Positions 6,383 through 37,423 of a stretch of DNA of 45,398 nt are shown here, piece after piece. The translations under genes and the position numbers were made by a program. The notes beneath the pieces were generated by a model. That model was not told the DNA's origin, did no database searches, and saw nothing but the letters and a program-made list of their open reading frames with translations. Position 1 is the stretch's first letter. The number at the start of each line of letters is the position of its first letter. The DNA comes from a virus. The DNA lies in IMG/VR virus record IMGVR_UViG_3300032323_002752, positions 1 through 45,398 of that record, one strand, 5' to 3'.

Positions 6383-8596
6383 ATGCCTATTCCATTAATA
6401 TCCAGAACGAACACCATTGATGAATGGCGTGTTCAAACTAACTTAGGAGCTACTGCTCTTAATAACTTAGAGGCCGGTAATTATACCAAAGCTAATGGTT
6501 CGTTATCATTAACTGCTAACAGTTCTTTGATTATTACAGCCAATGGTACTGCACTTCAAGTATCTAATAGTGCTTTGTTTCAGAGTAACGTTACGGTTGG
6601 TGGTGATATCGCTCTTGGTACACAAGGTTCTGCAACTGGTAATTTAACAACAGGTGGTGTAACTGTAATTCTAGGTCCAGGTAATGCTTTACAGGTGGCT
6701 AATAATGCAACTGTTAATACAGACCTTCAGGTGACAAGAACAATCTTCACAGGTAATGTTTCAGCCAATGGAAATGTTAACGTTGGTGGAAATTCAACAA
6801 TTGGCGGTGTTGTTAGAATGAATAATTCAGGAACAGCATTGTATGTTAACACAGGCACAGCTGTAATCAACACCGCAGTAATTACAAATTCAACCATAGG
6901 TAATATTGACGTTGTTCGTGGTGACATAGAAACATTAAATGTCACATCACAACTAAATGTTCAAAGTGCTTTAGTAACAATAAGAAGTTTATCTCCATCT
7001 TTTGATGCTTTGATTGTTAATCAAGGAAAAACAACAGTTCAAGATGTTGTCATTCAAGGTAACTTGTCTGTTTCGGGAACATACACACAGACCGGCAATT
7101 CAAATATTGAAATTGATACAATTACTTTAAACTCAAATACAAATATTGATAGGGATGCAAATATTGTTAACCGCCGCATTTCTGGAAATAATGCAGTGAT
7201 TCAATGGAACGAAGTTGATAAAAATTGGAAAGTATCTAGAGGTAATACATATACTTCTTTAAATAATATTATAGATTCCAGTTATGTTCTTTCCGTTGTT
7301 ACTAGTAATAGCACAATCAATGTGGCTTCAGCAGCCGCAGCTAAAGCTGCTTTTGATACCGCAGTAATTGCTGGGGGTTATGCAAATTCTGCTTACACCT
7401 CACAAAATACAACAGGTGTTTATGCTAATACTGCTTATACTCACGCCAATGCAGCTTATGTCAGTCAAAACACAACTGGTGTATATGCTAATACATCATA
7501 TCTACACGCTAATGCGGCTTATGTAAGTCAGAATACAACAGGTGTTTATGCTAACGCTGCATTTGCTCATGCAAATACACGATTTGCTTCTGCTGGTGGT
7601 ACAATCTCTGGTGCTGTTGTAATTAACGGCAATTTAACTGTTACTGGCACACAAACATATGTGAACTCAACAATCACAATGTTTGCTGACCCAATATTAA
7701 CATTAAATGCTGACTGGCCTATGGCATCAGCACCTATTGAAAATGCAGGTATTGAAGTTCAACGAGGCACATCTGCAAATACAGTATTGCGATGGAACGA
7801 AACAACAGATAGATGGGAATTCACAAACGATGGCACGAACTACGGTGATATTGCCTCTACCGCACAAGTAACTGCAGCTGGTTCATTCGCCAACTCTGCA
7901 TACACTCAAGCAAATACAGCAACAACTAATGCGGCCACTGCTGACCAACGAGCAATAACTTCTGGTTCATTCGCCAACTCAGCATATACACAGGCTAACA
8001 CCGCAACAACTAATGCGGCCACTGCTGACCAAAGAGCAGTAACTTCTGGTTCATTTGCTAATAGTGCTTATCTACAAGCTAATACTGCAACTACAAACGC
8101 TGCTTCAGCCAACACTAATGCAAACAGTCGTGTATTGAAAGCTGGAGATACAATGACTGGTGCTTTGATTGTTCAGTCCACGATAGATGCAACAGGCACA
8201 ATTACTGCACCTTTGTTTAGTGGTACTGCAACTGCTGCTCGTTATGCTGACTTGGCAGAAAAATATACGACTGATGTAGAATATTCTGTCGGTACTGTTG
8301 TTGTTGTTAATACTGAACCAGATTCAGAGGCAACAAAATCAACATCAATTTCTCAATTGGTTTTAGGAGTTATCTCCGAGAAACCTGCTTATCTAATGAA
8401 TTCGGAATCCACTGGTCAAGCTATTGCTTTGCGTGGCCGAGTTCCTGTTCGTGTGGTTGGACCTGTTAGAAAAGGTCAAACATTGGTTTCTGGTCCTAAT
8501 GGAACAGCCAGTGTTGGTGAAGTTAATCGTTTTGCGATTGCTTTAGAATCTAAAGATACACACGAAGAAGGGAATATTGAAGTAGTTATTTTATGA
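6383..8596 (+). CDS. Tail fibre / adhesin with ANSAY repeats
   Basis: A 737-residue fibre-like protein. Residues 1-60 (MPIPLISRTNTIDEWRVQTN) look like a virion-attachment end. A beta-rich shaft full of N-G-N-V-x-V-G-G-type turns follows. Two copies of a small domain with a W-N-E...W signature appear near residues 275-295 and 465-485. Degenerate 28-residue ANSAY...ADQRAVTSG repeats run over about residues 500-585. The C-terminal 125 residues open with ARYADLAEKY and resemble a terminal domain common in phage fibres. It could form a trimeric fibre. No S74 auto-processing serine is seen, unlike three later fibres here. The stop overlaps the next gene by 4 nt. Receptor binding is inferred. Confidence 0.85.
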   Translation: MPIPLISRTNTIDEWRVQTNLGATALNNLEAGNYTKANGSLSLTANSSLIITANGTALQVSNSALFQSNVTVGGDIALGTQGSATGNLTTGGVTVILGPGNALQVANNATVNTDLQVTRTIFTGNVSANGNVNVGGNSTIGGVVRMNNSGTALYVNTGTAVINTAVITNSTIGNIDVVRGDIETLNVTSQLNVQSALVTIRSLSPSFDALIVNQGKTTVQDVVIQGNLSVSGTYTQTGNSNIEIDTITLNSNTNIDRDANIVNRRISGNNAVIQWNEVDKNWKVSRGNTYTSLNNIIDSSYVLSVVTSNSTINVASAAAAKAAFDTAVIAGGYANSAYTSQNTTGVYANTAYTHANAAYVSQNTTGVYANTSYLHANAAYVSQNTTGVYANAAFAHANTRFASAGGTISGAVVINGNLTVTGTQTYVNSTITMFADPILTLNADWPMASAPIENAGIEVQRGTSANTVLRWNETTDRWEFTNDGTNYGDIASTAQVTAAGSFANSAYTQANTATTNAATADQRAITSGSFANSAYTQANTATTNAATADQRAVTSGSFANSAYLQANTATTNAASANTNANSRVLKAGDTMTGALIVQSTIDATGTITAPLFSGTATAARYADLAEKYTTDVEYSVGTVVVVNTEPDSEATKSTSISQLVLGVISEKPAYLMNSESTGQAIALRGRVPVRVVGPVRKGQTLVSGPNGTASVGEVNRFAIALESKDTHEEGNIEVVIL
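7878..8130 (+). repeat. ANSAY-type 84-nt repeats in first fibre
   Basis: Three degenerate copies of an 84-nt unit encode 28 residues of the form ANSAYxQANTATTNAATADQ followed by RAVTSGSF. The first two copies agree closely at DNA level. The same unit recurs in four other fibre genes of the window, so it is a shared shaft module, probably alpha-helical or coiled-coil judging by its alanine and polar spacing. Confidence 0.85.
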
Positions 8597-9120
8597 TAAG
8601 CATTGGTGAGTTTGATGAATTTATACATAATGATTTTGTTTATGCACAAAAATTAATCTCGATTATCAACGAAGAAGGCAAACAAATATTCGTTGATAAT
8701 CTAGGAGAACTATATAAGTTTAATGCGTGTACCATTAAATTGGAACACATGGAGAGATACAGTAGAGAAATCTACGACTATTGTAAATTTCTTTCCAGTA
8801 AATATAATAATGATTTGCCGGTGACTTGTCATGTATTCAGAGCCTTTAGGCAATCTTTAAGTTTTGGCTTGCATACCGACCCGGACGATGTTATACTACG
8901 TTGTGTTTGGGGTAAAAAAAGAATGAGTGTTGACGGTAAAATTGTTGACCTTCATCCAGGCCAAAAAGTTTTTATTCCCGCAAACACACCACATGAAGCT
9001 CTCAATGATGAAGAATCATTGATGTTGAGTTTTGGTTTAGAAGATTTTTATAAGAATAAATTATATAATGAATTGGATGTTTTACCTAAAAACCACGGAA
9101 ACGTGCAATCTGAATTGTAA
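8593..9120 (+). CDS. Cupin/JmjC-like Fe(II) oxygenase candidate
   Basis: A 175-residue protein. His94-x-Asp96 (in SFGLHTDPDDV) and His134 (in FIPANTPHEAL) are spaced and placed as in the metal triad of cupin and JmjC-type Fe(II)/2-oxoglutarate oxygenases. PGQKVFIPANTPH is the typical second cupin strand pair. The protein begins by a 4-nt overlap with the preceding fibre gene, and its end is overlapped by the radical SAM gene that follows, so the two are probably translationally coupled. The substrate is unknown. Its place at the head of the radical SAM cassette suggests protein modification (inference). A metal-binding cupin without oxygenase activity is the main alternative. Confidence 0.68.
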   Translation: MISIGEFDEFIHNDFVYAQKLISIINEEGKQIFVDNLGELYKFNACTIKLEHMERYSREIYDYCKFLSSKYNNDLPVTCHVFRAFRQSLSFGLHTDPDDVILRCVWGKKRMSVDGKIVDLHPGQKVFIPANTPHEALNDEESLMLSFGLEDFYKNKLYNELDVLPKNHGNVQSEL

Positions 9121-10132
9121 ACATTGCTTTACAAATGGCACCAATGGAGCTAAGGTATTTTGGAATCATTATAAGATAATTGATTGGATTAAAAGGTTTG
9201 CTGAATATAGAAAAGATAATTTAAAGCAAGATACTTTACATTGTGAATTTCATGGCGGTGAACCTTTTTTAGTTCCTACTTTTCAAATGCGTCATGTGTG
9301 GGAAGATTGTAAAGACTTATTTCCCAACATGACTTGGGGTGCAACAACAAATTTAGTATATAAACTTGATGAAGAACAGATTGACTTAATTAAGGATTGT
9401 TTTGATAATCGTATAGGTACAAGTTGGGATCCTAAGATACGATTTGCAAACCAAAAACAGAATGATTTATGGTTAAAGAATGTTAAAACTATTGTTGACC
9501 GAGGAATAAATGTTAAGTTGTTCATTAGTGTTACAAAAGATACAGTAGATATAGAACCAATTGAATTGTTAAAATGGGTCAAAAGTTTAGGCATAAAAGA
9601 GTTATCTTTTGAACGGCTTACTGGTAACGGAAATGCTAATCTACATCCAGAAATTTTTCCGACCAATATTGAACAGGATGCATGGTTTTTGAAAATGCAC
9701 CATCAGTCCGAAGAACATGGTTGTAGAGAATGGTTTGATAATGAGTTTTTAGAAACCATTTATGGTAAGTTTGAAACTGGATTTCTAAAAGGTGGAACAT
9801 TCTGCCGAGATTGTGAAGAAAAGTTGTTTACGGTCAATGCTGATGGTACTATTTCTGGATGTCCAAATTCGGCACCAGAATTTCAGTTTGGAAACATTGA
9901 TGATGATATAGAAACACTTATAAATAGTCCTATAAGAATAGAAAATATTGCGTGTGAACGGTCTAGGGACCCAAGATGTTATTCATGTGATGTTTTTGAG
10001 TATTGCGGTGGAGATTGCCACCAACTAGGCTGGCAAGACGATGTTTGTGGTGCCCCTAAAAGTTTAATGAGATTTTTAAAAAGTAAAGAAAATAAAAAAA
10101 TTTGGATGATGAAAAATGGCAACATTAAATAA
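9068..10132 (+). CDS. Radical SAM/SPASM protein A
   Basis: A 354-residue protein of the size of peptide-modifying radical SAM/SPASM enzymes. The CX3CX2C cluster motif is Cys13, Cys17 and Cys20, and the SAM-binding GGEP is at residues 63-66. From about residue 245 to 330 there is a SPASM-like region with many cysteines (CRDC, GCPN, C296, C304, C307, C313, C317, C327), expected to hold auxiliary Fe-S clusters. The reading frame overlaps the upstream cupin gene by 53 nt. A second ATG three codons in (9077) is an equally plausible start. It lies directly upstream of the Cys-His-x-Ser protein (17-nt overlap), which is the strongest contextual hint for its substrate. Enzyme class is secure; reaction and substrate are not. 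Confidence 0.9.
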   Translation: MNWMFYLKTTETCNLNCKHCFTNGTNGAKVFWNHYKIIDWIKRFAEYRKDNLKQDTLHCEFHGGEPFLVPTFQMRHVWEDCKDLFPNMTWGATTNLVYKLDEEQIDLIKDCFDNRIGTSWDPKIRFANQKQNDLWLKNVKTIVDRGINVKLFISVTKDTVDIEPIELLKWVKSLGIKELSFERLTGNGNANLHPEIFPTNIEQDAWFLKMHHQSEEHGCREWFDNEFLETIYGKFETGFLKGGTFCRDCEEKLFTVNADGTISGCPNSAPEFQFGNIDDDIETLINSPIRIENIACERSRDPRCYSCDVFEYCGGDCHQLGWQDDVCGAPKSLMRFLKSKENKKIWMMKNGNIK

Positions 10133-10688
10133 CCCCATAAACCCACAAAATATCGTTGATAGATTTGCAGACTATGTAGTGGCCACAGGCAATGCAGGAA
10201 TTGTTTGGGGAACAGATGCGATTCCATTCGGTGAAATGGATGTGTCTTACTTTGGTGGAACAACATCAGGTAAATCAATAGGAATTTCTGGCTCAAATAT
10301 TAATGCGGTTGGTGATATAATCACAGCCTCAAACATCTATAATACACTTGTCACTGAAACAGCAACATTTACAAACATTAGAAACCTAAGAGCATTACTA
10401 TTCGTTGATGGTGGTGGTGGAAATACAGGTTCTAGGCCAGATCCAGGATATGTATACGATAACACACAAGTTGCATACTTGAATTCTTCATATTTACAAA
10501 GCATTGGTTCACCTAATCCTTCGGATGTATCTTCTGGAAATTCAGCAACCAGTTCAGGTTTAGAAACATTCTTTGCAAATTTGCAATCAGCTTATAATAC
10601 AGCAAGAGCAACGACAGAAACTATACAGATTAATGTGTGTCACGCATCTTGTCATTCATCATGTCACGGCTCTAGAGGAAGAAGATAA
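10116..10688 (+). CDS. Virion-like protein with C-terminal (CHxS)3 tail
   Basis: A 190-residue protein I do not place in a named family. Residues 1-170 are soluble, Gly/Ser/Asn/Thr-rich and beta-prone, like fibre or tip proteins, with a GGGGNTG segment near residue 108. They contain no cysteine. The last 16 residues hold Cys175-His176, Cys179-His180 and Cys183-His184, each followed by x-Ser, then a basic Arg-Gly-Arg-Arg end. All three cysteines of the protein lie in this tail. Such a leader-like body with a short repeated tail, next to radical SAM/SPASM genes, looks like a modification substrate. The tail resembles the His-Xaa-Ser repeats of HxsA proteins but with Cys interleaved. Alternatives are a metal-binding tail or disulfide anchor. 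Confidence 0.75.
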   Translation: MATLNNPINPQNIVDRFADYVVATGNAGIVWGTDAIPFGEMDVSYFGGTTSGKSIGISGSNINAVGDIITASNIYNTLVTETATFTNIRNLRALLFVDGGGGNTGSRPDPGYVYDNTQVAYLNSSYLQSIGSPNPSDVSSGNSATSSGLETFFANLQSAYNTARATTETIQINVCHASCHSSCHGSRGRR

Positions 10689-11410
10689 TGAATATAATTG
10701 AAACTGTTGCACCAATTTCTATTGAAGAATTGAAAAAATATTTTACAGATAAGAATAATTTTTATCTAATTGATTATTCAAAATCAAAGTTAAAAGGTAA
10801 AAAACTTTTAACATATTTAAGTAATTTGGAAATTCCTTCAGACATAAACTTTATAGGTACAACAGAAGAAGAATTCTCTGAGATATTTAAAGAATATTTG
10901 AATTTGGAAATGATTTGTAATGTGCCATCACTTGAAAAAATTACGATTGATATTCTAAAAGAATTTAAAGGACTATCAAACCAAAGTATATTTGACGGTC
11001 TAATACAAGACAACACAGATATCCTTAAAGAATGGGTATCTAAACTAGACAGTTTAACTTTATACAATATGTATTCAATTGGTGATGAAGAATTTAAAAA
11101 ATTTGTTGAATCACATACATTAGATGAAACCAATTGTCTTAAAGGTGTTAATTTTGTTAGCCTATTGAAACATAAAGAATTTTACAGTCTATATGAAAAA
11201 ATAGAACAACGAGATTTGAAATTTTATAAAAAATATTTTGAAGATTATATGTTCAAAGGAAAGAATCTATATTCCTATTGGGCAAACGAAAACAACCCCA
11301 TGTTCCTATTAACATTCGGTATTGCTGGCGGTCTTGTTACGGGCGATGATTATGTTTCAATTAAAAAACAAACAATTCAGGAGTTAAAGGATGTTTCACC
11401 TATTCAGTAA
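10688..11410 (+). CDS. Unknown protein in radical SAM cassette (240 aa)
   Basis: A 240-residue protein I do not recognise. It is Lys/Glu/Leu-rich and looks soluble and mostly helical, with no signal peptide or clear membrane segment. A hydrophobic glycine-containing stretch (FLLTFGIAGGLVTGDD) lies near residues 208-223. Its start codon overlaps the stop of the Cys-His-x-Ser protein by one base (TAATG), indicating translational coupling. Its end overlaps the next gene by 20 nt. Position between the putative substrate and further enzymes makes a partner role, such as substrate recognition or delivery, conceivable, but no sequence feature demonstrates it. Confidence 0.7.
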   Translation: MNIIETVAPISIEELKKYFTDKNNFYLIDYSKSKLKGKKLLTYLSNLEIPSDINFIGTTEEEFSEIFKEYLNLEMICNVPSLEKITIDILKEFKGLSNQSIFDGLIQDNTDILKEWVSKLDSLTLYNMYSIGDEEFKKFVESHTLDETNCLKGVNFVSLLKHKEFYSLYEKIEQRDLKFYKKYFEDYMFKGKNLYSYWANENNPMFLLTFGIAGGLVTGDDYVSIKKQTIQELKDVSPIQ

Positions 11411-12425
11411 GGTATATGTAACTAGTGATTCTACAATAGATTTAGATTTTGATAGAGTAGTCATATCTAACAAATATGGAGTCGGTATGTATGAGGCTTT
11501 GGATAAAGTTTCTTATGGAGAATTATGTGCATATGGAAAAACCATAGATTCTGCTCTGAATGGAAAAACATTCAGTGCGTTTATCAATTCTTTATTACAA
11601 AAAGTAAACAATACAGGGAAAAAAGTTATAATTTATGTTGATGATAATAATTTTTCAAAATTTATGTCACTATGGTTCAAATCAATATTTTTGAATCCTA
11701 CAGCAGAATCATCTTGGAAAATAATTGATGATTATATTAGAAAAGAAAAGATACTGAAGAATTGGAGATATTCTTCAACCTCAACCGAATCTGATATCTT
11801 TAAAGAAGTGACTGAAGTTAAATTCATTGAACATTTTAATGAAGCACAGCCACAAAATTTATCTTCAATAACTTCTGAATTAAGTTTTGAAATTTTGTTA
11901 GCTTCATATTTGGCAGACGGTACACAAAAAGATTCTTTGAAACAAACATTGAACACATTATTGAATAGAAGTATGCAAGAGTTGGTAATAGAAATTAAAC
12001 ATACATATGTAAAAAATTACAGAAAACCTGCATTTCCATCTTTGCCTGTTGAACTCACATTCTTTTCAGACTCATCATTGTATAAGAGTGAATCTATTGG
12101 TAGAGTAAGTGGTTCGTCTCCTGTTGATTTGATTGGTGCAACATCAGAAGATATTGAATTATTTAAACAAACAGCCGTCAAAGTTCTTACTGAATGGGAC
12201 CAGTTTAACTCAAATTCCAATATTGTCAATCGTGTGGGACTAATTAACTTCGTTAGAACAGAAATCACAGATGAACAACTGAATTATTTAATCAATTTTG
12301 AAAAGACATCTTTAAGTAACACTAGATTATATTCTTCCGCTGATGAAGAAAAAATTAATATTTACTTTTTGGATTTTGTTTTGAACTCAACACAAGAGAA
12401 TTTGACAGATTATATTTTAAAATGA
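11391..12425 (+). CDS. Unknown protein in radical SAM cassette (344 aa)
   Basis: A 344-residue protein without a family I can name. The N-terminal 100 residues (MFHLFSKVYVTSD, later KKVIIYVDDNNFSKFM) alternate beta strands and helices and could form a small Rossmann-like or PIN-like lobe. The rest is helical and Ser/Leu/Lys-rich. There are almost no cysteines and no catalytic motif. It overlaps its upstream neighbour by 20 nt and the downstream oxygenase by 4 nt (ATGA), so it belongs to the same translationally coupled block. It may be a structural or adaptor protein for the modification enzymes (inference only). Confidence 0.7.
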   Translation: MFHLFSKVYVTSDSTIDLDFDRVVISNKYGVGMYEALDKVSYGELCAYGKTIDSALNGKTFSAFINSLLQKVNNTGKKVIIYVDDNNFSKFMSLWFKSIFLNPTAESSWKIIDDYIRKEKILKNWRYSSTSTESDIFKEVTEVKFIEHFNEAQPQNLSSITSELSFEILLASYLADGTQKDSLKQTLNTLLNRSMQELVIEIKHTYVKNYRKPAFPSLPVELTFFSDSSLYKSESIGRVSGSSPVDLIGATSEDIELFKQTAVKVLTEWDQFNSNSNIVNRVGLINFVRTEITDEQLNYLINFEKTSLSNTRLYSSADEEKINIYFLDFVLNSTQENLTDYILK

Positions 12426-13051
12426 ACCATGATTTATATTATGAAAATGGTTTTTTTAAAACAGAAATTGATGATGTAACAAAAAAACTGTTGTGGAATG
12501 AAATTTATAATACCGAATGGATTGCAGATGGTGTTGAAAACATTTATAAAGAAATACCCGTTTGGTATCAAAGCAAAAATAAATATAATTTAAATCCAGA
12601 TGGATCAAATCGTTCTCAATATGAGAGAGATATTGGTTCCGACATTCTAAAAAATACTCCAAAATCTTTAATTGAAATAGGACTTGATTTAACCCAATCA
12701 AGTCCTTTTAATTTTTTTAAAAAGTATTATAAAAAAGCTGAACTTCAATATATAGATTTATGGAATGGTTCAGAAGAAATACCATATCACTTTGACACAA
12801 TAAATGGTGCAGATACCTTGGTGTTGATATACTTGACAGAGCAAGAATCTTGGGATAAAAATTGGGGTGGCACAATTACAATGAAGAAACAGGTGGGAGA
12901 AAAAATTCATTTTGAAGAAGAAGTTTTGCCAAATGATGGTGTTATGCTTATTGTAAATAATGCAAACCCACTAGTCTACCATAAAGTTTCATCTTTAAAA
13001 AATACATCCATAAATAGATATACATTTTCATTCATTTATAGGTGGTTTTGA
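12422..13051 (+). CDS. 2OG-Fe(II) oxygenase, short paralogue
   Basis: A 209-residue protein with the full double-stranded beta-helix signature of a 2-oxoglutarate/Fe(II) oxygenase. His123-x-Asp125 (PYHFD) and His187 would bind iron, and Arg199, twelve residues after the distal histidine, would bind 2-oxoglutarate. The strands VLIYLTE and WGGTITM between them are typical of prolyl-hydroxylase-like members. It is clearly paralogous to the C-terminal half of the protein at 14053-15153, sharing the WNGSE, WGG and NRYTF blocks. It lies between unknown genes and a radical SAM gene. It probably hydroxylates an amino-acid side chain or a sugar; the substrate is unproven. Confidence 0.85.
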   Translation: MNHDLYYENGFFKTEIDDVTKKLLWNEIYNTEWIADGVENIYKEIPVWYQSKNKYNLNPDGSNRSQYERDIGSDILKNTPKSLIEIGLDLTQSSPFNFFKKYYKKAELQYIDLWNGSEEIPYHFDTINGADTLVLIYLTEQESWDKNWGGTITMKKQVGEKIHFEEEVLPNDGVMLIVNNANPLVYHKVSSLKNTSINRYTFSFIYRWF

Positions 13052-13055
13052 TTTG
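13039..13055 (+). promoter_or_regulatory. RBS and TTG start of radical SAM B
   Basis: An AGGTGG purine-rich sequence at 13039-13044 lies eight bases before TTG at 13053. No ATG is available before the CX3CX2C motif in this frame, so the TTG start is favoured. The RBS is inside the last codons of the upstream oxygenase. Confidence 0.5.
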
Positions 13056-14078
13056 ATAGCTGAACATTTATTAAACATTCATGATAAGAGACCAGATGTT
13101 GGTGAAATTATTGTTACATTATTTGAATATTGTGATTTGAATTGTCTTTTTTGCAATCAAGACCATGATAGTTATGAAGGTATAAATTCAATAGTCAATA
13201 AGTTTGAAGAAATCAAACTGTCAATAGACCAACTAATTTCAAAAGGCAAAAAGTCATTTTCCATACACATGATGGGTGGTGAACTTTTTTCCGATAAAAT
13301 AGAAGATAGTGTTTTTGATGATTACCGAATATTAACAGAAAAAACATTACAATATGGTAAAGAAAAAAACATACCAATAGAAGTATCCTTTGTTACGAAT
13401 TTTGTCTGGACAAAAAAAGACAGGGTGAAAAATTTTTTAGATGCGAACAATTTAAAAGTAATGACCAGTTACGACCCAGCTGGAAGATTTAATGCAAATA
13501 CTTTTGAAATATATAAAGCAAATGTGGTGGAATTTAAAGATTACATACAAACCGTCAATGTCATTATGACCAAACCTAACATTGATAAGTTTATGAAAAA
13601 TCAAGTTCCTTTTTTTGATTTCATCTATGATAATTTTGCCATATATTTTGACTACTATGGTCCTGGTAAAAATCACGAATTTTTATTAGCTAAAGATATT
13701 GAACTTAGAGATTTTATGAAGTATATGTTTGATACTTGGCCTAAATGTTATCCATTTAAAACATTTGATGTTAAAACAAAAAATAAAATGTCTTGCATGG
13801 ATACACTAACTGTAATGCCAAACGGTGAATGGGGTGGATGTGGCCATTTTGAAAAATTAGTAAAAATTATACCTATCAAAAACATAACTGAAGAGCAATG
13901 GTTTGAAAGTTATAATTGTTTTGAATGTGAACATTTTCAAAGATGTTCAATGGGTTGTTTTATGAGTAATCACGTAAAAGATATGAGAACTCAAAAAACT
14001 TGTTGGTTAAAAGAAGTATATGATTATGTTGATTTAGAAGATAGGAAAACAAATGATTGTAGCATTAATAGAACATAA
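13053..14078 (+). CDS. Radical SAM/SPASM protein B
   Basis: A 341-residue radical SAM protein. The cluster motif CX3CX2C is Cys27, Cys31 and Cys34, and the SAM-binding glycines are GGEL at residues 75-78. The C-terminal third carries a SPASM-type cysteine set: CMDTL, then GGCGHF, then C-x2-C-x5-C-x3-C and a final Cys before the last helix. It uses a TTG start placed one base after the upstream stop. It is distant in sequence from the radical SAM protein at 9068, so it is not a recent duplication. Probable role: formation of a thioether, C-C or similar cross-link or other radical modification on a peptide; the target is not known. Confidence 0.88.
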   Translation: MIAEHLLNIHDKRPDVGEIIVTLFEYCDLNCLFCNQDHDSYEGINSIVNKFEEIKLSIDQLISKGKKSFSIHMMGGELFSDKIEDSVFDDYRILTEKTLQYGKEKNIPIEVSFVTNFVWTKKDRVKNFLDANNLKVMTSYDPAGRFNANTFEIYKANVVEFKDYIQTVNVIMTKPNIDKFMKNQVPFFDFIYDNFAIYFDYYGPGKNHEFLLAKDIELRDFMKYMFDTWPKCYPFKTFDVKTKNKMSCMDTLTVMPNGEWGGCGHFEKLVKIIPIKNITEEQWFESYNCFECEHFQRCSMGCFMSNHVKDMRTQKTCWLKEVYDYVDLEDRKTNDCSINRT

Positions 14079-15153
14079 TAAAGATTTTATAGCAGAAGAA
14101 AGTATATGCTATATCAGAAAAAAATATCCTAGTTTCAAATTTGATTATGAACTCTTGCGTAGAGATATTCATATGATTATTGATATCTTTATGGGAGAAC
14201 TTCATGTTGAAGGTGGAGTATACTCATATGATATTGAAGATGGTCGTGATGATTCATATTATCAATTAAACAGATATAAGAGGTCGTTTACAGTTTTTAG
14301 AAACCATAGTGAAGAAACTATTGATTGTATTCAATATACATCAGGTTTGATTAAAAAAGTTGTAAAAAATGAAACGGTTGAAAATGTCTTAAACACATTC
14401 TTCAAACAAATAAAAGATGAAAGTCAAACTTTACCTGATGATAAAATGGTTGACTTTGATGCAATCGTGGGTTTGATAATCTCAAATTCTTCAGCTGGTG
14501 CGGCAAGAAACTATCACATAGATTTTATTGAAGAATACTTTGATAAAGGCTTTGTTGTTACTAAAATTCCTCCACACATACATGAACAACTTTGGGAACA
14601 AGTTCGCAATACAAATTGGATTGACGCCAAAAATTCCACATATAAAAAAGTTCCAGATTGGTATCATGAGAACGAAAAACATTATGTTGACCCAACAGGA
14701 TTTGACCGACCTGATTATGAGAGAAAAGTTGCAGCTGATATTTTTACAAATGCGCCACAAAGTTTGATTGATATTTCAGATGAATTGATTAAGGATGATA
14801 CATTCAAACCTTTAAGAATGTATAGACCTCCAAATCCTGTCACCAAATATTTACATTTCTGGAATGGTAGTGAAAATTCACCACATCACGTTGATGCTAT
14901 TGACGGTTCAGATTTAATGGTATTTCTTTACCTAACTGAAGAAACCGATTGGAAAGAAGAATGGGGTGGGTATATTAATATTATGAAAGAAGTTAACTCT
15001 GAAATTACTAACACAAGAACAATTCTTCCAAATAATGGCGTAATGGTTTTAGTTAATAATTCAGCACCAATCTTTAAACACGGCATTCGTAATTTAATTA
15101 AACGTGATGTGAATAGATATACATTTATTTTTCACTATACGTGGACATATTGA
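14053..15153 (+). CDS. 2OG-Fe(II) oxygenase with N-terminal extension
   Basis: A 366-residue, two-part protein. Residues 1-155 form a domain I do not recognise, with several aromatic and acidic residues and a central MGELHVEGGVYSYD segment. Residues 157-366 are a 2OG-Fe(II) oxygenase paralogous to the 209-residue protein at 12422. His279-x-Asp281 and His343 would bind iron, and Arg355 lies twelve residues after the distal His. A good ribosome site (AGGA at 14043-14046) precedes the ATG, which overlaps the upstream radical SAM gene by 26 nt. The extra domain may give substrate binding or different specificity (inference). Oxygenase class is firm; the reaction is unknown. Confidence 0.84.
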   Translation: MIVALIEHNKDFIAEESICYIRKKYPSFKFDYELLRRDIHMIIDIFMGELHVEGGVYSYDIEDGRDDSYYQLNRYKRSFTVFRNHSEETIDCIQYTSGLIKKVVKNETVENVLNTFFKQIKDESQTLPDDKMVDFDAIVGLIISNSSAGAARNYHIDFIEEYFDKGFVVTKIPPHIHEQLWEQVRNTNWIDAKNSTYKKVPDWYHENEKHYVDPTGFDRPDYERKVAADIFTNAPQSLIDISDELIKDDTFKPLRMYRPPNPVTKYLHFWNGSENSPHHVDAIDGSDLMVFLYLTEETDWKEEWGGYINIMKEVNSEITNTRTILPNNGVMVLVNNSAPIFKHGIRNLIKRDVNRYTFIFHYTWTY

Positions 15154-15159
15154 TGTTTT

Positions 15160-16227
15160 ATGGAATTAATTATAAAACCGACCGAAAGGTGCAACTTTAA
15201 ATGCACCTTTTGTTCAAGCACCAATATCACCGAAGATAAGTCTGTTGAATTAGACCACGAATACATTTTTCGTTTTCTCAAAAGATATCCTGAAACAAAT
15301 ACCATCATAGTTAATGGTGGTGACCCATTGATGATGAATCCAGAATACTATTGGAAAATTATAGATTATTTGGATGAGAATGAGTTGTCAACAGGAATCA
15401 GTTTTACTTCCAATCTTTGGCCATTTTATAAAAACCCCGATAAATGGATTGACTTGTTCAGACACAAAAGAATGGGAATTGCAACATCGTTTCAGTATGG
15501 TGGTGGAAGATTAAAAGGTGATTTGTCTGAATTCACCGAAGAAGATTTTTGGAATGTTTCTGATAAAATGTTAGAATTGGTGGGTTACAGACCAGATTTT
15601 ATCTCAGTGATAACAGAAGAAAATGTTAATAGAGCGATTGATAATGTTTTATTAGCTAAAAAAATGAGTGTGGAATGTAAGTTGAATTATGCTTTCAGTT
15701 CCGGTCCACCAGTTCAGTTTCGTGGCATTACAATGGGTCAACAAGGCAAACCATATATGTTGGCTGACATCTATGAGATATATGTTAAGATATGGGAGAT
15801 GGGATTAACTGATTGGGAATACAACACCAAACAGATGGTCAAGCGACTGAGAGGCAATTCAACCACTTGTCCTCAGAATAGAGATTGTGATTCCAGTATC
15901 AGAACATTACAACCATCAGGTGACTACTATTCTTGTGGTGCTTTCGGTGACGATAAAGAATATTCCATAGACTTTGAAACTGAAATGTCTGGTAAGAAAA
16001 TATTTCCAATTAAACACGAAGTTGATTTACAATCATTAAAACAATCATGTTATTCTTGTCCAATGTTTCAAATTTGTAACGGTTGTAAAAAAACAATTAA
16101 AGATTTGAAAAGTCATGGCTTAGTTGAGAAGCATTGTAAAAAAATGAAAACTCTAGCTCCTAGTATAATTCAGGCAAACCAAATGGAGTTGGAAGTTACC
16201 CCATATGTTAATGAGGAATTAGTGTGA
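15160..16227 (+). CDS. Radical SAM/SPASM protein C
   Basis: A 355-residue radical SAM protein beginning MELIIKPTERCNFKCTFC. The cluster cysteines are Cys11, Cys15 and Cys18, and a GGDP at residues 53-56 replaces the commoner GGEP. The C-terminal part has a long cysteine set (CPQNRDC, YSCGAF, SCYSCPMFQICNGC, then a final CKK) consistent with SPASM auxiliary clusters. The beginning (K-P-T-x-x-C-N-F-x-C-x-F-C) is typical of peptide and protein maturases. Its stop overlaps the next radical SAM gene by 3 nt. No ribosome site is obvious ahead of the ATG; coupling to the upstream oxygenase, six bases away, is likely. Substrate unknown. Confidence 0.9.
   Translation: MELIIKPTERCNFKCTFCSSTNITEDKSVELDHEYIFRFLKRYPETNTIIVNGGDPLMMNPEYYWKIIDYLDENELSTGISFTSNLWPFYKNPDKWIDLFRHKRMGIATSFQYGGGRLKGDLSEFTEEDFWNVSDKMLELVGYRPDFISVITEENVNRAIDNVLLAKKMSVECKLNYAFSSGPPVQFRGITMGQQGKPYMLADIYEIYVKIWEMGLTDWEYNTKQMVKRLRGNSTTCPQNRDCDSSIRTLQPSGDYYSCGAFGDDKEYSIDFETEMSGKKIFPIKHEVDLQSLKQSCYSCPMFQICNGCKKTIKDLKSHGLVEKHCKKMKTLAPSIIQANQMELEVTPYVNEELV
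16213..16226 (+). promoter_or_regulatory. RBS and GTG start of radical SAM D
   Basis: GAGGAA at 16213-16218 precedes a GTG start (16224-16226) by five bases. The GTG overlaps the TGA stop of the upstream gene as GTGA. No ATG exists before the conserved cluster motif, so the GTG start is the best reading. Confidence 0.6.
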
Positions 16228-17147
16228 TTTTATCGGTAAACCCATGGTACTACTGTAACTTTAGGTGTGACTTTTGTTATCTAACTGAAAGTCAATTGGA
16301 AGACACCAAGCTGTTACCGATTGAAATTTTAGAAGAAAGATTGATAGAGATTTCAAGTCACGCCAAAATTGACATGGTAGACTTGTATGGTGGAGAAGTG
16401 GGAATATTGCCTAATGAATATGTTTCGGCAATTAAAGATTTGTTACACACTTACGGTATAGATGATATTAACCTGATAACTAATTTGTCTATGGTCAATG
16501 ATATAGTGACCGATGAAGATTTCTATATCTCGGTCAGTTATGATTTTGAAGCTAGAGAGAAACACGAACAGGTTTGGAGAAATATGTTGTTACTTAAACG
16601 ACCATTCTCCGTTCTTATGTTGGCCAGTCCAAAGTTGATTCAAAAAGATGTCAATGAGATGATACAGGCCTTCAATCTAATACCTAATGTTTGTAGTGTA
16701 GAGATTAAACCATACTCAACTAATCAGGCCAATCAGTTAAATATTAATTACCGTGAATATGAAGAATTCGTTAAGAAGTGGATTACAAGTCCAATAAAGA
16801 AAAATTTTTCATTTACAAACGAACAACTTATAGAACAGAGTATATCTGGAGAAAGAAATAGTTTTTCGGATGACCATATCTATATAACACCATCAGGTAA
16901 ATATGGTGTATTGGAGTTTGACTTAAACGATAACGAATTCTTCTTAGAATATGAAACTTTTGATGATTATTTGAACTGGTGTGAAAGAGAAAAGAAAAGA
17001 GTTGCAAAAAATAAATTTTGTTCTGAATGTAAGTATTTTGGCAATTGTCTATCCGAACACCTAAGAGAAGTTAAGAACTTAGACAATAGTTGTAATGGAT
17101 TTAGACTATTATTAGATTGGTATAAAGATGAAAGAGTGGAAAATTAG
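16224..17147 (+). CDS. Radical SAM protein D with short C-terminal Cys cluster
   Basis: A 307-residue radical SAM protein, the shortest of the four. The cluster motif is Cys11, Cys15 and Cys18 within VNPWYYCNFRCDFCY, and a YGGE sequence covers residues 55-58. Instead of a full SPASM domain the C-terminus has C-x2-C-x5-C followed later by one more Cys, enough for one auxiliary Fe-S cluster (twitch-like). It follows radical SAM C with a GTGA overlap and itself overlaps the next small gene by 20 nt, so the pair C/D may act together, as paired radical SAM enzymes do in some RiPP systems such as Hxs. Pairing and substrate are inferred. Confidence 0.86.
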   Translation: MILSVNPWYYCNFRCDFCYLTESQLEDTKLLPIEILEERLIEISSHAKIDMVDLYGGEVGILPNEYVSAIKDLLHTYGIDDINLITNLSMVNDIVTDEDFYISVSYDFEAREKHEQVWRNMLLLKRPFSVLMLASPKLIQKDVNEMIQAFNLIPNVCSVEIKPYSTNQANQLNINYREYEEFVKKWITSPIKKNFSFTNEQLIEQSISGERNSFSDDHIYITPSGKYGVLEFDLNDNEFFLEYETFDDYLNWCEREKKRVAKNKFCSECKYFGNCLSEHLREVKNLDNSCNGFRLLLDWYKDERVEN

Positions 17148-17532
17148 GCAAGAAATCTATCATAGATTGAACACAGAATATTCGGATGATTTAAGTTTAC
17201 ACCACATTGAAATGACAGAAAATGTGGTTGAAAATGCTATTAGATATTTCAATGAAAGAGATATAGGCTGGATATACCCATCTAAAAGTTATATGGTTGG
17301 CATATGCTATGCTAAATGGTTATCTGAACAATTTGGTAAAGAACCAATTGATTATCTAAACGAAGAAGATTTGTTATATAGAAATGACCCATACTTTGTA
17401 ACCTATGATAAAGACAAAGTTACTTATGATGAAATATTAAGTAAAATTGGTGGTTGGAATTTCAAATTTGAGGGTATGGTTCCTGATGTTAAGGAATATT
17501 TTAATGAGGAGTTTATGATTGAAAACTTTTAA
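17128..17532 (+). CDS. Small unknown protein between maturase and oxygenase
   Basis: A 134-residue acidic, Tyr/Glu/Asp-rich protein, apparently helical and soluble. I do not recognise its family. Notable blocks are YPSKSYMVGICYAKWLSEQF near residues 49-69 and a C-terminus FNEEFMIENF. It overlaps the upstream radical SAM gene by 20 nt and the downstream oxygenase start by 14 nt, so it is embedded in the modification cassette. Its size would suit a substrate-recognition or accessory protein, but nothing in the sequence proves this. Confidence 0.65.
   Translation: MKEWKIRQEIYHRLNTEYSDDLSLHHIEMTENVVENAIRYFNERDIGWIYPSKSYMVGICYAKWLSEQFGKEPIDYLNEEDLLYRNDPYFVTYDKDKVTYDEILSKIGGWNFKFEGMVPDVKEYFNEEFMIENF
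17506..17521 (+). promoter_or_regulatory. RBS and TTG start of oxygenase at 17519
   Basis: GAGGAG at 17506-17511 is an almost ideal Shine-Dalgarno sequence seven bases before TTG (17519). The nearby ATG at 17515 is in another frame and belongs to the end of the preceding gene, so TTG is the real start. Confidence 0.65.
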
Positions 17533-18088
17533 TCTATGGCCTACCACAATGATGGTACATGAGGTTGAAGATGAAGAATTGATGTCGGAATCTTTGGCTT
17601 TTTTAATTACCAACCGAAAAGAACTCGTCAATAAAGAGAATAAGAAAAGTTGTATACTAGAAAACGAACCTCTGAAACAGTTAAAGGAAAAAGTATTCTT
17701 ACCGGCGTTTGATAAATACCTACAAGAAACCTGTAATAGAAAACTTGATGATTGGAGTTACAACCTCAATGGATGGTTGGCATCATACGGTGAAGGTCAA
17801 AGTTTGAATTATCATAATCATAGAGGTTCACAACTAAGTTCGGTGTTATACATGATGGCCGATTCTGAAGATGATGGTGGCGACATTATGTTCACTGACC
17901 CTAGACAGAACGCAAATCGTGGATATGATTTACATTTTAGTAGTTGGTTTGAATCGTTTAGACTGAAACCTAAGTGTGGCCAGTTAGTTGTTTTTCCTAG
18001 TTTTCTATATCATTACGTGGAAACTTACAGAAGTAATATAAGAATGGCTTTGCCTGTAGATTGTTTCCTACAAAACAAACATAAATAA
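17519..18088 (+). CDS. 2OG-Fe(II) oxygenase, TIGR02466-like
   Basis: A 189-residue protein with the block order of the small phage/bacterial 2OG-Fe(II) oxygenases of the TIGR02466 type. YHNHRGSQLSSVLYM (His99, His101) is followed by a GG-D-I-M-F-T-D-P-R segment, then GQLVVFPSFLYHYVETY with His165, then an arginine (Arg175) for 2-oxoglutarate. The N-terminus (MKTFNLWPTTMMVHEVED) also fits this family. It belongs to a different subfamily from the paired oxygenases at 12422 and 14053. This family is widespread in marine T4-like phages, where its substrate is unknown. It closes the modification cassette directly before a fibre gene. Confidence 0.87.
   Translation: MKTFNLWPTTMMVHEVEDEELMSESLAFLITNRKELVNKENKKSCILENEPLKQLKEKVFLPAFDKYLQETCNRKLDDWSYNLNGWLASYGEGQSLNYHNHRGSQLSSVLYMMADSEDDGGDIMFTDPRQNANRGYDLHFSSWFESFRLKPKCGQLVVFPSFLYHYVETYRSNIRMALPVDCFLQNKHK
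18080..18087 (+). promoter_or_regulatory. Candidate T4-type late promoter before fibre 18093
   Basis: CATAAATA matches the T4-like late promoter consensus (TATAAATA) at seven of eight bases. It lies only five bases before the ATG and coincides with the stop region of the upstream oxygenase, so transcription from it would give an almost leaderless message. Chance occurrence in AT-rich DNA is possible. Confidence 0.3.
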
Positions 18089-18092
18089 GTAA

Positions 18093-19181
18093 ATGTCCTC
18101 ATTATTAGATAGATTAAATTCAGGAACAACAGCTGATGTCATATTGGTTTATGATACGGTTGATGCTGCGTTTATAAAAGCCAACTCTGCTTTTAGTAGT
18201 CAAAATACTACAGGTGTTTATGCCAATTCGGCCTATATTCATGCCAACGCTTCATATAGTTTAGCGAATACTGTTGCTGCCAACAATACACCTACAATCG
18301 CTTTCTTAACGGCCAACGCTGCCTTTATTCAAGCAAACGTAGCAACTGCATTGGCTCAAGAAGCTTTTAATTCTGCCAATAATGTCGCACCACAAATTCA
18401 ACCAGCATTTGACCAAGCTAATATTGCATTACAATATGCCAATTCTGCTGGTCAATATGCAAATGCAGCTTATAATCAAGCCAATACTGCAACAACCAAT
18501 GCCGCTACTGCCGACCAAAGAGCAGTAACTTCTGGTTCATATGCCAATAGTGCTTTTTCTGCAGCCAATACGGCTTTAGCTGGTGTTGCTGGTTCTTATG
18601 CCAACAGTGCTTTTGGTCAAGCAAACACCGGAGTTGTTTTTGCAACTTCGGCTGGAGTTTATGCAAATGCAGCTTATAATCAAGCCAATACTGCAACAAC
18701 CAATGCCGCTACTGCCGACCAAAGAGCAGTAACTAGTGGTGTTTACGCTAACGCTGCCTTTGCATCGGCAAATACTAAATTTAATTCATCCGGTGGAACG
18801 ATTTCTGGTGCAGTTACAATATCAAGCGGTGGACTAGCTGTGACCGGTGCAATTACCGCAACTGGTGATATCACAGCATTTTTCTCAGATGACCGATTAA
18901 AGACTAAATTAGGTAACATAGAAAATGCTCTGGATAAATTGATGACTTTGAGTGGTTTTTATTATGAACCCAATCAGACTGCCATAGACCTTGGATATGA
19001 ACTGAAACGTGAGATTGGAGTTTCTGCACAAGAGGTACAAAAAGTTGTTCCGGAAATTGTCGTTAAAGCACCAATAAGTGACGAATATTTAACGGTTAAG
19101 TATGATAAATTGATTCCTCTAATCATAGAATCTATCAAAGAACTGAAGTGTGAAATTGATAGTTTAAAAATGCCTAAATAG
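18093..19181 (+). CDS. Tail fibre with S74 chaperone domain
   Basis: A 362-residue fibre protein. Residues 1-250 consist largely of ANSAY/ADQRAVTSG-type repeats, two copies of which (about 18466-18530 and 18661-18735) are almost identical at DNA level. The last 98 residues form a Peptidase_S74 (endosialidase-type) intramolecular chaperone, starting SDDRLK. Ser265 and Lys270 match the autocleavage Ser-x4-Lys pair known in this family, so the domain is expected to fold the trimer and then be cut off. A short terminal helix (IIESIKELKCEIDSLK) is typical. It follows the oxygenase gene by 4 nt. Confidence 0.88.
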   Translation: MSSLLDRLNSGTTADVILVYDTVDAAFIKANSAFSSQNTTGVYANSAYIHANASYSLANTVAANNTPTIAFLTANAAFIQANVATALAQEAFNSANNVAPQIQPAFDQANIALQYANSAGQYANAAYNQANTATTNAATADQRAVTSGSYANSAFSAANTALAGVAGSYANSAFGQANTGVVFATSAGVYANAAYNQANTATTNAATADQRAVTSGVYANAAFASANTKFNSSGGTISGAVTISSGGLAVTGAITATGDITAFFSDDRLKTKLGNIENALDKLMTLSGFYYEPNQTAIDLGYELKREIGVSAQEVQKVVPEIVVKAPISDEYLTVKYDKLIPLIIESIKELKCEIDSLKMPK

Positions 19182-23989: not shown

Positions 23990-26959
23990 ATGCCAACAAC
24001 ACAATTACAATTAAGACGTGGTAATACTGCTCAAACAGCCATATTTACAGGTGCTGTTGGTGAGGTGACCGTAGATACGGATAAAAAAACGCTTATAGTT
24101 CATGACGGAGTTACTCCTGGTGGAATAGAAATTTCACTAAAATCGATAACGGATTTTGCATATTCTCAGGCAAATACTGCTACAAATAATGCTGCCACAG
24201 CTGACCAGCGTGCCGTAACTTCTGGTTCATATGCCAATAGCGCCTTTGGTGTTGCAAATACCGCTAACCAAAGAGCAGTAACTTCCGGTTCATATGCCAA
24301 TTCAGCATATGCTCAGGCAAATACTGCAACTACACTATCGCAATCAGCATATGACCAGGCTAATACTGCTACAAATAATGCTGCCACGGCTGACCAGAAG
24401 GCAGTGAGTGCTGGTGTATATGCTAACTCAGCATATGCTCAAGCAAACACATCCGACCAAAAAGCGGTAACTTCTGGTGATTATGCTAACAGTGCTTATT
24501 TACAGGCAAATACTGCTACAACTAATGCAGCTACGGCCGACCAAAAGGCTGTAACATCTGGTGTATATGCTAACTCAGCATACGGCCAAGCAAACACAGG
24601 AACAGTTTTAGCCCAAGCCGCTTATGATTCCGCAAACAATGTTGGACCACAAGTTCAACCTGCCTTTAATGCTGCCAACTCCGCTGGTTCATATGCCAAC
24701 TCAGCATATGCTACTGCAAATAGTTTATTTGATGGAACCAGTGTGGCCACCGTTTTTGCGTTTCAGTTAAATTCTGCTGATATAACATCAAATGGTGCTA
24801 TGGTAATTTCAACTGGCGCATCTGGCGGAACTCCTAAAGATTTAACATTATCACCTTCATCTGGTATAACAAAAACTTCAGGAACAATTTTAATACAAGA
24901 TAATGATATTCTTGCACTAGCACAATCAGCATATGGTCAAGGAAATACGGCTGACCAAAAGGCAGTAACATCCGGCGATTATGCTAATTCTGCTTATGCT
25001 CATGCAAATACAAAGTTTAGTGCATCAGGTGGAACAATTTCTGGTAATGTAACAGTTGGAACTTTTGTAAACTTTACTACTGGACTTAGCGATCCTTCAT
25101 ATGAAGAAGGAAGAGTATATTATGATTCAGGTTCAAAATCTTTAGCATACTATAATGATGATTCTCAGAGTTATATTCATGTAGGTCAAGATGTAGTAAC
25201 TCGGGTTTGGAATAATTCGGGTGTAACTTTACCTAGAGCAAATTGTGTATTCATTTCTGGAACTTCTTCAGCTAACGGATTCCCAAGTGTAAAATTAGCG
25301 AGTGCTGATGCTGCTGCAAATAGTGAAGTTATAGGATTAACAACCGCTAGTATTGCTCCTGGTGGTTACGGATTCGTTTTAATGTCAGGTAGAATTCAAG
25401 GATTAAACACCTCATCAATAACCGAAGGTTCGGAGTTATTTCTATCAGCTACCGAACCAGGTAAATTTACAACTGCAGTTCCCGATTCACCAAATGTTCC
25501 TTTAAATATTGGTTATGTAACACGTTCAGATTTAACTGACGGTACATTACTGGTAAATATTCATTTGATGGAAGGAAGCAATAAGACTGATGGTTCGATT
25601 TTGTTTGCACGTAGTGGTAAGATTGACCAAGATAATTCTAATTTTTATTGGGACCATATTAATAATAAACTAGGCATAGGTACAAATAATCCAACTGCAA
25701 ACTTACACGTTGAAGGTTCTGGATTATTTACAGGTAATGTAATAATTTCAGGCAATTTACTTGTATCGAATGCTCAATCTATTACAACTTCAGAATTGAC
25801 TGTTGGTGGTAATACAATTATTTTGAATGATGAAGTAACGGGAACACCAACATCCAATGCAGATATTATTGTTAATAGGGGAACTTCACCTAACGTTTAT
25901 ATCAGATGGTCTGAAACAATTAATGAATGGGTTATGTATGAAGATGCTGGGTATGCAGAAGGACACATACTACACTCAGAAAAAACAGCAAAAACATGGG
26001 CAGATTACACTGCTATGGCTGCTTATGAAAAGTCTACTCATCCGATTGGTGCAGAATTAGCAAACAATACAAATGAACACGCCAAATCAGGTTATCAAGT
26101 TGCCAATACAGCAACCTCTCATGCAATATCTGGATTCATTCAGGCAAATTCTGCATATATTTCTCAAAATACAACTGGTTCTTATGCCAACTCAGCATAT
26201 GCTCAAGCAAATACTGCCAACCAAAGAGCAGTAACTTCTGGTTCATATGCCAATTCAGCATATGACCAGGCTAATACTGCTACAAATAATGCTGCCACAG
26301 CTGACCAGAAGGCAGTGAGTGCTGGTGTATATGCTAACTCAGCATATGCTCAAGCAAATACTGCAACTACCAATGCTGCCACAGCTGACCAAAGAGCAGT
26401 AACTTCCGGTTCATATGCCAATTCAGCATATGCTCAGGCAAATACTGCAACTACCAATGCTGCCACAGCTGACCAAAGAGCAGTAACTTCTGGTGTATAT
26501 GCTAATGCGGCATTTGATAAAGCAAATACTGCTGGTTCATCATTGTCCAATGATACTTCAACAAACACCGACTACTTTCCAACTTTTGCAACTGCAACAA
26601 CAGGTACTGCTAGTGCGTTGTTGGTGTCAAGCACAAAACTTACATATAATCCCTCAACCGGAACATTAACAGCTGTTGATTTAAATAGCACATCAGATAG
26701 TAAGTATAAAGAAAATATTGAACCTATCAATTCGGCAATATCGATACTAAATAATATCAATGGTGTTTCTTTTAATTGGAAAGAAACAGGAAATAAATCT
26801 TATGGTGTTATCGCTCAAGAATTGAAAGATATATTACCTGAGTTGGTTAAACAAGGTGAGCAAGGACTATCAGTTTCATATATTCCATTAATTGCAATAT
26901 TGATTGAAGCTGTCAAAGAACAACAAAAACAAATAGAAGAATTAAAAAGCCGAGTTTAA
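23990..26959 (+). CDS. Large tail fibre with Mtd-like N-terminus and S74 domain
   Basis: A 989-residue fibre. Residues 1-45 (MPTTQLQLRRGNTAQTAIFT, then GEVTVDTDKKTLIVHDG) are the classical N-terminal phage fibre domain related to the major tropism determinant. ANSAY repeats fill roughly residues 58-250 and 700-845. A middle domain (GVTLPRANCVFISG to GTLLVNIHLM, about residues 405-525) is a beta module common in adhesins, and a second W-S-E...W module lies near residue 640. The last 88 residues are a Peptidase_S74 chaperone (SDSKYK, Ser902 and Lys907 as the expected Ser-x4-Lys pair), followed by a short coiled coil. It could form a long trimeric receptor-binding fibre that matures by autocleavage. 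Confidence 0.9.
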   Translation: MPTTQLQLRRGNTAQTAIFTGAVGEVTVDTDKKTLIVHDGVTPGGIEISLKSITDFAYSQANTATNNAATADQRAVTSGSYANSAFGVANTANQRAVTSGSYANSAYAQANTATTLSQSAYDQANTATNNAATADQKAVSAGVYANSAYAQANTSDQKAVTSGDYANSAYLQANTATTNAATADQKAVTSGVYANSAYGQANTGTVLAQAAYDSANNVGPQVQPAFNAANSAGSYANSAYATANSLFDGTSVATVFAFQLNSADITSNGAMVISTGASGGTPKDLTLSPSSGITKTSGTILIQDNDILALAQSAYGQGNTADQKAVTSGDYANSAYAHANTKFSASGGTISGNVTVGTFVNFTTGLSDPSYEEGRVYYDSGSKSLAYYNDDSQSYIHVGQDVVTRVWNNSGVTLPRANCVFISGTSSANGFPSVKLASADAAANSEVIGLTTASIAPGGYGFVLMSGRIQGLNTSSITEGSELFLSATEPGKFTTAVPDSPNVPLNIGYVTRSDLTDGTLLVNIHLMEGSNKTDGSILFARSGKIDQDNSNFYWDHINNKLGIGTNNPTANLHVEGSGLFTGNVIISGNLLVSNAQSITTSELTVGGNTIILNDEVTGTPTSNADIIVNRGTSPNVYIRWSETINEWVMYEDAGYAEGHILHSEKTAKTWADYTAMAAYEKSTHPIGAELANNTNEHAKSGYQVANTATSHAISGFIQANSAYISQNTTGSYANSAYAQANTANQRAVTSGSYANSAYDQANTATNNAATADQKAVSAGVYANSAYAQANTATTNAATADQRAVTSGSYANSAYAQANTATTNAATADQRAVTSGVYANAAFDKANTAGSSLSNDTSTNTDYFPTFATATTGTASALLVSSTKLTYNPSTGTLTAVDLNSTSDSKYKENIEPINSAISILNNINGVSFNWKETGNKSYGVIAQELKDILPELVKQGEQGLSVSYIPLIAILIEAVKEQQKQIEELKSRV
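24344..24447 (+). repeat. 104-nt repeat, copy A (copy B at 26255)
   Basis: This segment is almost identical, with one mismatch by eye, to bases 26255-26358 within the same gene, 1911 nt downstream. Both encode an ANSAYDQANTATNNAATADQ-type unit. Long near-identical direct repeats inside one gene allow internal deletion or expansion by recombination. Confidence 0.8.
26255..26358 (+). repeat. 104-nt repeat, copy B (copy A at 24344)
   Basis: Second copy of the repeat described at 24344-24447. It lies in the second ANSAY block, just ahead of the S74 chaperone part of the same fibre. Confidence 0.8.
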
Positions 26960-33871: not shown

Positions 33872-33872
33872 A
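33865..33872 (+). promoter_or_regulatory. Candidate T4-type late promoter before 33904
   Basis: CATAAATA lies over the stop codon of the dehydratase gene, 31 bases ahead of the next ATG, and is followed by a ribosome site GAGAGG at 33894-33899. The 32-nt gap is unusual in this tightly overlapping operon, which supports a real promoter. Only the hexamer-like sequence backs it. Confidence 0.45.
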
Positions 33873-33903
33873 AATATTGAATTATATATATGAGAGGTTA
33901 TGA

Positions 33904-36527: not shown

Positions 36528-36528
36528 T

Positions 36529-37422: not shown

Positions 37423-37423
37423 A

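Follow-up and report, generated by a model that had tools for sequence, protein, structure and literature searches.

Many phages and some predatory bacteria of the Bdellovibrio type probably make a chemically modified protein tail, since conserved radical SAM and iron-oxygenase genes lie beside a near-constant C-terminal repeat of the form Cys-His-x-Ser. This tail is a conserved family feature and not an oddity of one phage, and the module that carries it is perhaps used for grabbing the target cell. A fuller reading, in which the tail protein would be the substrate in a RiPP-like maturation cassette and would bear His-to-Ser/Asn cross-links in its tail, exposed and associated with fibres for target recognition, is in our judgement evenly poised between acceptance and rejection.

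The tail protein and its cassette

The window (the whole stretch of DNA analysed, a 45-kb virus record of 45,398 nucleotides) contains a cassette flanked on both sides by fibre-like genes.

6383-8596, + strand: fibre-like protein; its C-terminal domain precedes the tail by about 2 kb
8593-9120, + strand: cupin, conserved H94-x-D96...H134, JmjC-like; possible Fe(II) oxygenase
9068-10132, + strand: rSAM1, radical SAM/SPASM, CxxxCxxC (C13, C17, C20) and eight further conserved Cys
10116-10688, + strand: tail-bearing protein, 190 residues; folded body about 10-174 with pLDDT mostly above 85, tail pLDDT about 52
10638-10685, + strand: C-terminal tail CHASCHSSCHGSRGRR, residues 175-190; proposed modified segment
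10688-11410, + strand: gene B (phrog_20767), confident model, no known fold
11391-12425, + strand: gene C, evolving fast; weakly matched by a protein N-glucosyltransferase model (17.9 bits against a cut-off of 1000, E 9e-4)
12422-13051, + strand: 2OG-Fe(II) oxygenase
13053-14078, + strand: rSAM2, radical SAM, SPASM-like Cys
14053-15153, + strand: 2OG-Fe(II) oxygenase with N-terminal extension
15160-16227, + strand: rSAM3, radical SAM, SPASM-like Cys
16224-17147, + strand: rSAM4, radical SAM, shorter C-terminal Cys cluster
17128-17532, + strand: gene D, small, conserved, no database match
17519-18088, + strand: 2OG-Fe(II) oxygenase (PF13759, E 3e-13)
18093-19181, + strand: fibre-like protein with Peptidase_S74 chaperone domain at its end, at the downstream end of the cassette

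The first Cys of the tail protein is residue 175, with none N-terminal of it. Cys-His pairs lie at 175/176, 179/180 and 183/184, Ser at 178, 182 and 186, and R187-G-R-R190 is followed by the stop codon. The ORF translation therefore bears out the preliminary description, which had claimed a Cys-free body, Cys-His at 175, 179 and 183 each followed by x-Ser, and an RGRR end; the span it gave, 10641-10688, is correctly placed but begins one codon late, since Cys175 is encoded at 10638-10640. A search for the bare pattern (CHxx)2CH gave one occurrence in the window; 100 shuffles that preserved dinucleotide composition gave none. The 5' end of the tail gene overlaps the 3' end of the rSAM1 gene and its stop codon overlaps the start of gene B, so that these genes look translationally coupled. 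In an AlphaFold model the body is confident and the tail is predicted to be unstructured, an arrangement that suits an enzyme substrate. PHROG family 35144 covers only the tail end of the protein (residues 164-190). No clear relative of the body was found in Pfam and NCBIfam, nor of the model in PDB fold searches, and in BFVD the model matched three viral proteins that look like family members and, more weakly, had three matches within the single phage ctijX18. Searching a phage collection by tblastn with the tail protein gave no matches; gene B and the DNA pattern did find relatives. No fold was identified for the body or for genes B, C and D. Heme binding of the cytochrome c type (Cx3CH) was considered and set aside, as inspection by eye gave no export signal in the tail protein.

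The usual gene order is cupin, rSAM1, tail protein, B, C, oxygenase, rSAM2, oxygenase, rSAM3, rSAM4, D. Gene B was present in 171 of 171 viral tail loci with at least 2.5 kb of flank on each side and rSAM1-4 were all present in 12 of 12 long-flank viral loci; the scans share some loci, and these counts, like those for fibre and phage S74 domains below, are of loci and not of independent genomes. The tie between the tail and radical SAM genes that had been proposed was upheld. CxxxCxxC and the SPASM-like Cys are kept in rSAM1-3 (the first motif of rSAM3 was taken from the window sequence), and rSAM1 passes the SPASM model TIGR04085 with 34.6 bits against a cut-off of 27. The gene B model gave no significant match in Foldseek; VIA-align returned Z scores of up to 4.1, on residues 1-58 only, and a relationship of B to the radical SAM enzymes anSMEcpe and SuiB (Z of 3.0 and 2.8) was rejected as too weak. 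The weak N-glucosyltransferase match of gene C points to a possible role in glycosylation. There is also an alternative arrangement, with two adjacent tail proteins of about 130 residues and more radical SAM-like genes. Such paired proteins, with unrelated-looking bodies, are seen in L079, L081, L012 and similar loci, and the extra radical SAM-like genes in L079 and L081. One virus contig (L333, 8102-11346) encodes relatives of the cupin, rSAM1 and rSAM3 with no gene B and no tail within 19 kb, and may represent another system.

Constancy of the tail

The pattern scans preset both Cys and His, and constancy of the tail was therefore tested on loci picked by other genes. The scans themselves gave at least 120 stretches in viral contigs and 88 in bacterial and archaeal contigs, the latter mostly chance matches. 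Together with loci from earlier searches there were at least 242 matches, of which about 165 are the 16-residue tail in its R-x-R-R form, ending exactly at the stop codon. The remainder are mainly chance matches in GC-rich or repetitive DNA; many of the bacterial ones (Streptomyces and other GC-rich genomes) were discarded because they lack both a stop codon behind the tail and the cassette. A tail-independent set of 80 viral loci was obtained with a gene B alignment. Seventy-eight of these have DNA upstream of B, and in all 78 the extreme C-terminus has CHx[S/N] repeated exactly three times, with another residue only rarely at the S/N position. The preliminary description had looked to the number of repeats in relatives, and to a conserved Cys-His spacing set against a variable body, and both appear in these loci: mean identity is 86% over the last 16 residues and 38% over the body (56 non-redundant proteins). 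Synonymous codons vary within the tail (Cys TGT 95, TGC 73; His CAT 108, CAC 60). The residue two positions after His is Ser, Asn, Ala, Gln, Lys, Asp or Val and never Gly (0/309), and the middle residue is Gly in 80 of 309; loci selected with rSAM1 entered this summary of identity, codons and residues only after the pattern filter. The rSAM1-selected loci show the same tail and two new forms: in freshwater-type phages it ends CHSNCHGSCHGS[I/L], without RGRR, and the other form is CHYSCFTSSCHFSRGRR.

Since Cys and His are typical ligands and the tail is C-terminal and adjoins fibre genes, such tails, perhaps trimerised, might instead hold a metal ion at a fibre tip while the enzymes modify something else. 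We consider this improbable: plain metal binding needs no strict linkage to four peptide-type radical SAM/SPASM enzymes and Fe oxygenases, and the conserved residue two after His is Ser or Asn, a poor ligand.

Phage and bacterial carriers

The gene B tblastn search found the cassette in jumbo phages of Pseudomonas, Burkholderia, Sinorhizobium and Agrobacterium, in nearly the same gene order and with very different bodies; examples of their tails are CHTSCHTSCHSARGRR and CHSSCHASCHNSRSRR. Six cultured jumbo phages carry it (Atu_ph07, Phosso, DT01, FLC6, FLC8 and S13), and a tblastn search with rSAM1 (E below 1e-20) returned exactly those six, in seven records. Radical SAM genes have been noted in a pelagimyophage host-recognition cluster (PMC7029224) and in the jumbo phages FLC6, S13 and RP12/RP31 (PMC8066314, PMC11898562, PMC5468394), and virion proteomics of RP31 has been published (PMC5468394). 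FLC6 and S13 contain the present cassette; in their accessible parts these four papers list the enzymes without mention of a Cys-His-x-Ser protein. In the freely readable main texts covered, radical SAM, cupin and oxygenase genes are listed in single phages, and neither the tail protein nor its link to them is described.

In Bdellovibrio-type bacteria the cassette lies on chromosomal contigs, amid housekeeping genes. Of 129 genomes in the order to which G001 belongs, 5 have the tail pattern and 13 have gene B, one of these 13 marginally. The readable B-positive genomes without the usual pattern have altered tails in the same slot: CHGNFPPPCHGSRGRR in L325 and L327-L329, CHTNVPTPPPCHASRGRR in L326, CHSNHCSHSNHGSRGRR in L330 (period 3) and CHSSHSSHSSHSSRGRR in L331, which reads C(HSS)x4RGRR and is a true His-Xaa-Ser repeat, also of period 3. 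Loss of the tail with retention of body and enzymes, the finding that would have counted against the initial idea, was not seen in any readable gene B locus, where the tail merely changes form. Nearly all tails keep H-x-[S/N] with at least one Cys ahead of the first His. The variants retain His-x-Ser/Asn with one to three Cys added, and so provide a link to the His-Xaa-Ser (HxsA) idea. The H-x-S frame claimed from the window is accordingly borne out by cassette relatives with period-3 tails (L330 and L331), the best NCBIfam match of the L331 tail being HxsA.

These variants also bear on the possibility of a thioether system, in which a radical SAM enzyme links each Cys to a carbon atom in a nearby residue, the chemistry of ranthipeptides and sactipeptides, and His and Ser merely shape the site. 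The Cys is invariant in the three-repeat class, and the second-best curated match of rSAM1 is the ranthipeptide maturase PapB (44.5 bits), which remains far below the PapB cut-off of 340. However, the number of Cys falls to two in L325-L330 and to one in L331 while H-x-[S/N] and four radical SAM genes are retained, and it is therefore unlikely that all four enzymes serve Cys. A thioether system as the explanation of the tail is accordingly unlikely, although we give it some weight.

Fibre genes beside the cassette

Of 199 viral loci with 4 kb of upstream DNA, 155 have a fibre C-terminal domain like that of 6383-8596 some 2 kb upstream from the tail. Among phage loci with 6 kb flanks, an S74 domain was seen in the available DNA of only 12 of 57; phages usually have a fibre neighbour of another type. 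All ten predator genomes have at least one Peptidase_S74 domain within about 16 kb of the cassette, out of just 2-19 such domains each in 3.3-4.2 Mb, with four of the ten (G084, G085, G089 and G108) sharing one genomic site and so representing one event. The fibre association that had been proposed thus holds as gene context, in 155 of 199 viral loci and in 10 of 10 predator genomes; that the tail forms part of a virion fibre is a conditional reading of this context.

Several further neighbours were observed. In several of the predators a pilin-type N-terminus fused to S74 is encoded beside the cassette (L300:6658-7692, L302:15759-16901, L305:1629-2918, L325-L330 and L332). A second predator neighbour, with a conserved end like VDGRHWVKVK and no database match (L300:7698-8324, L302:16954-17505, L305:2930-3526, L325:429-1010), weakly resembles the phage fibre C-terminal domain at profile level (hhalign probability 42%). 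A small protein with a twin-arginine-like start adjoins the predator cassette (L300:8431-8730, L302:15376-15753, L325:2190-2555, L326:16121-16495). The window itself encodes a fibre that starts with a Major tropism determinant N-terminal domain and ends in S74 (23990-26959), a Cys-rich fibre-like protein of 1152 residues with NTTGxNNxAxGxxAL repeats and an S74 end (26972-30430), and what by eye is a cluster of sugar or surface-glycan enzymes (glycosyltransferases, epimerase, carbamoyltransferase; 30452-40125).

The flanking fibre genes raise the alternative that the large fibre proteins nearby are the targets of the cassette and that the tail protein serves it as carrier, chaperone or sensor. 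The number of enzymes does far exceed the apparent need of a 16-residue tail, and L079 has several further radical SAM-like ORFs. Yet the tail is the sole small constant element of a variable protein whose gene overlaps rSAM1, and the fibre neighbours of phages and predators differ in type; there is in our view only a slim chance that the fibres are the targets.

A proposed pathway of tail modification

In the pathway that we favour, a folded body would present the unstructured C-terminal tail to four radical SAM/SPASM enzymes, with the cupin and 2OG-Fe(II) oxygenases assisting. That the cassette enzymes act on the tail is highly likely. H-x-[S/N] is common to all tail types, which makes a His-to-Ser/Asn cross-link the likeliest core reaction: each His would be joined to the beta-carbon of the Ser or Asn two residues on, in a three-residue linkage of the 'triceptide' type. 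The His-Ser link, as read from the repeats, is put forward tentatively, at somewhat less than an even chance. Every H-x-[S/N] unit obeys the rule for three-residue cyclophane enzymes, which bond His or an aromatic residue at i to a beta-carbon at i+2. Glycine has no beta-carbon, and its absence from the second position after His (0/309) agrees with this rule, as consistency and not proof, given that Ser and Asn dominate that position whatever the reason. A His-Ser link leaves the invariant Cys of the main class unexplained, and the extra Cys would undergo a separate chemistry.

Phage tails and the cell surface of Bdellovibrio-type predators would then display the rigid tail together with target-recognising fibres. 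A fibre or recognition role for the tail protein, suggested by its neighbours, is a matter on which we find the balance level. The predator tail protein has no evident signal peptide by eye, so that its route out of the cell is unexplained. It is possible, but on balance doubtful, that a viral multi-enzyme RiPP-type pathway installs a new cross-linked Cys-His-x-Ser structure on a host-recognition virion protein and that predators use the same module for prey recognition. If the proposal is correct, phages run elaborate radical SAM chemistry on a protein of their own, through a module that is common to predatory bacteria, in which it lies beside fibre genes; the radical SAM cassettes seen without explanation in host-recognition regions of phages would be assigned a substrate, and the natural tail variants would let the roles of Cys, His and Ser be separated.

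Comparison with known systems

The S74 fibres of B. bacteriovorus are surface adhesins in prey recognition (PMC10769870), and the paper describing them makes no mention of radical SAM. The present system resembles phage tail fibres and the Bdellovibrio mosaic adhesive trimers in that cassette neighbours in the window and in predators have S74; it differs in that the tail protein itself has no S74 domain and that the predator neighbours combine S74 with a pilin-type N-terminus.

With Hxs systems the cassette shares H-x-S units at a protein C-terminus beside radical SAM/SPASM enzymes, and HxsA is weakly matched by the (HSS)x4 relative L331 (16 bits, cut-off 121.65; E 0.008). Hxs repeats are tandem H-x-S of period 3, as are the tails of the cassette relatives L330 and L331; the window tail, in which a Cys is added, has a period of 4, and the partners B, C, D, cupin and 2OG oxygenases are a further difference. 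No match to HxsA (TIGR03979) was found for the window protein or among the matches listed for 71 aligned relatives, nor to HxsD for the cupin, B, C or D. Scores of the cassette enzymes against HxsB and HxsC lie at 18-29 bits, with rSAM1 at 25.8 bits for HxsB (TIGR03978, cut-off 370) and rSAM3 at 28.6 bits for HxsC (TIGR03977, cut-off 267.9). Membership of the Hxs system, to which the preliminary description had likened the tail, is therefore not supported, as neither enzymes nor precursor come near the curated cut-offs. The Cx3D repeats of ranthipeptides (PapA/PapB) are likewise not matched, the tail repeat being Cx3C with no Asp four residues after Cys. None of the curated 3-CyFE models (YhhB, AmcB, FxsB, XyeB, GrrM) was reached, the best score being that of the L331 rSAM1 to YhhB (42.1 against 445 bits). 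The tail system thus fails the curated Hxs, PapB and cyclophane-enzyme cut-offs.

Among known radical SAM linkages to a beta-carbon at i+2, His is joined to Ala or Arg and Phe to Ser (PMC11002830). The system described here, known from sequence alone, differs from those of the triceptide enzymes HaaB, YhhB and MscB in that its substrate would be the tail of a folded protein and in having several radical SAM enzymes per cassette. It resembles them in the SPASM enzyme beside the precursor, rSAM1 passing TIGR04085, and in the H-x-[S/N] spacing, which places His, where they use His or an aromatic residue, two positions before a residue that has a beta-carbon (PMC11002830).
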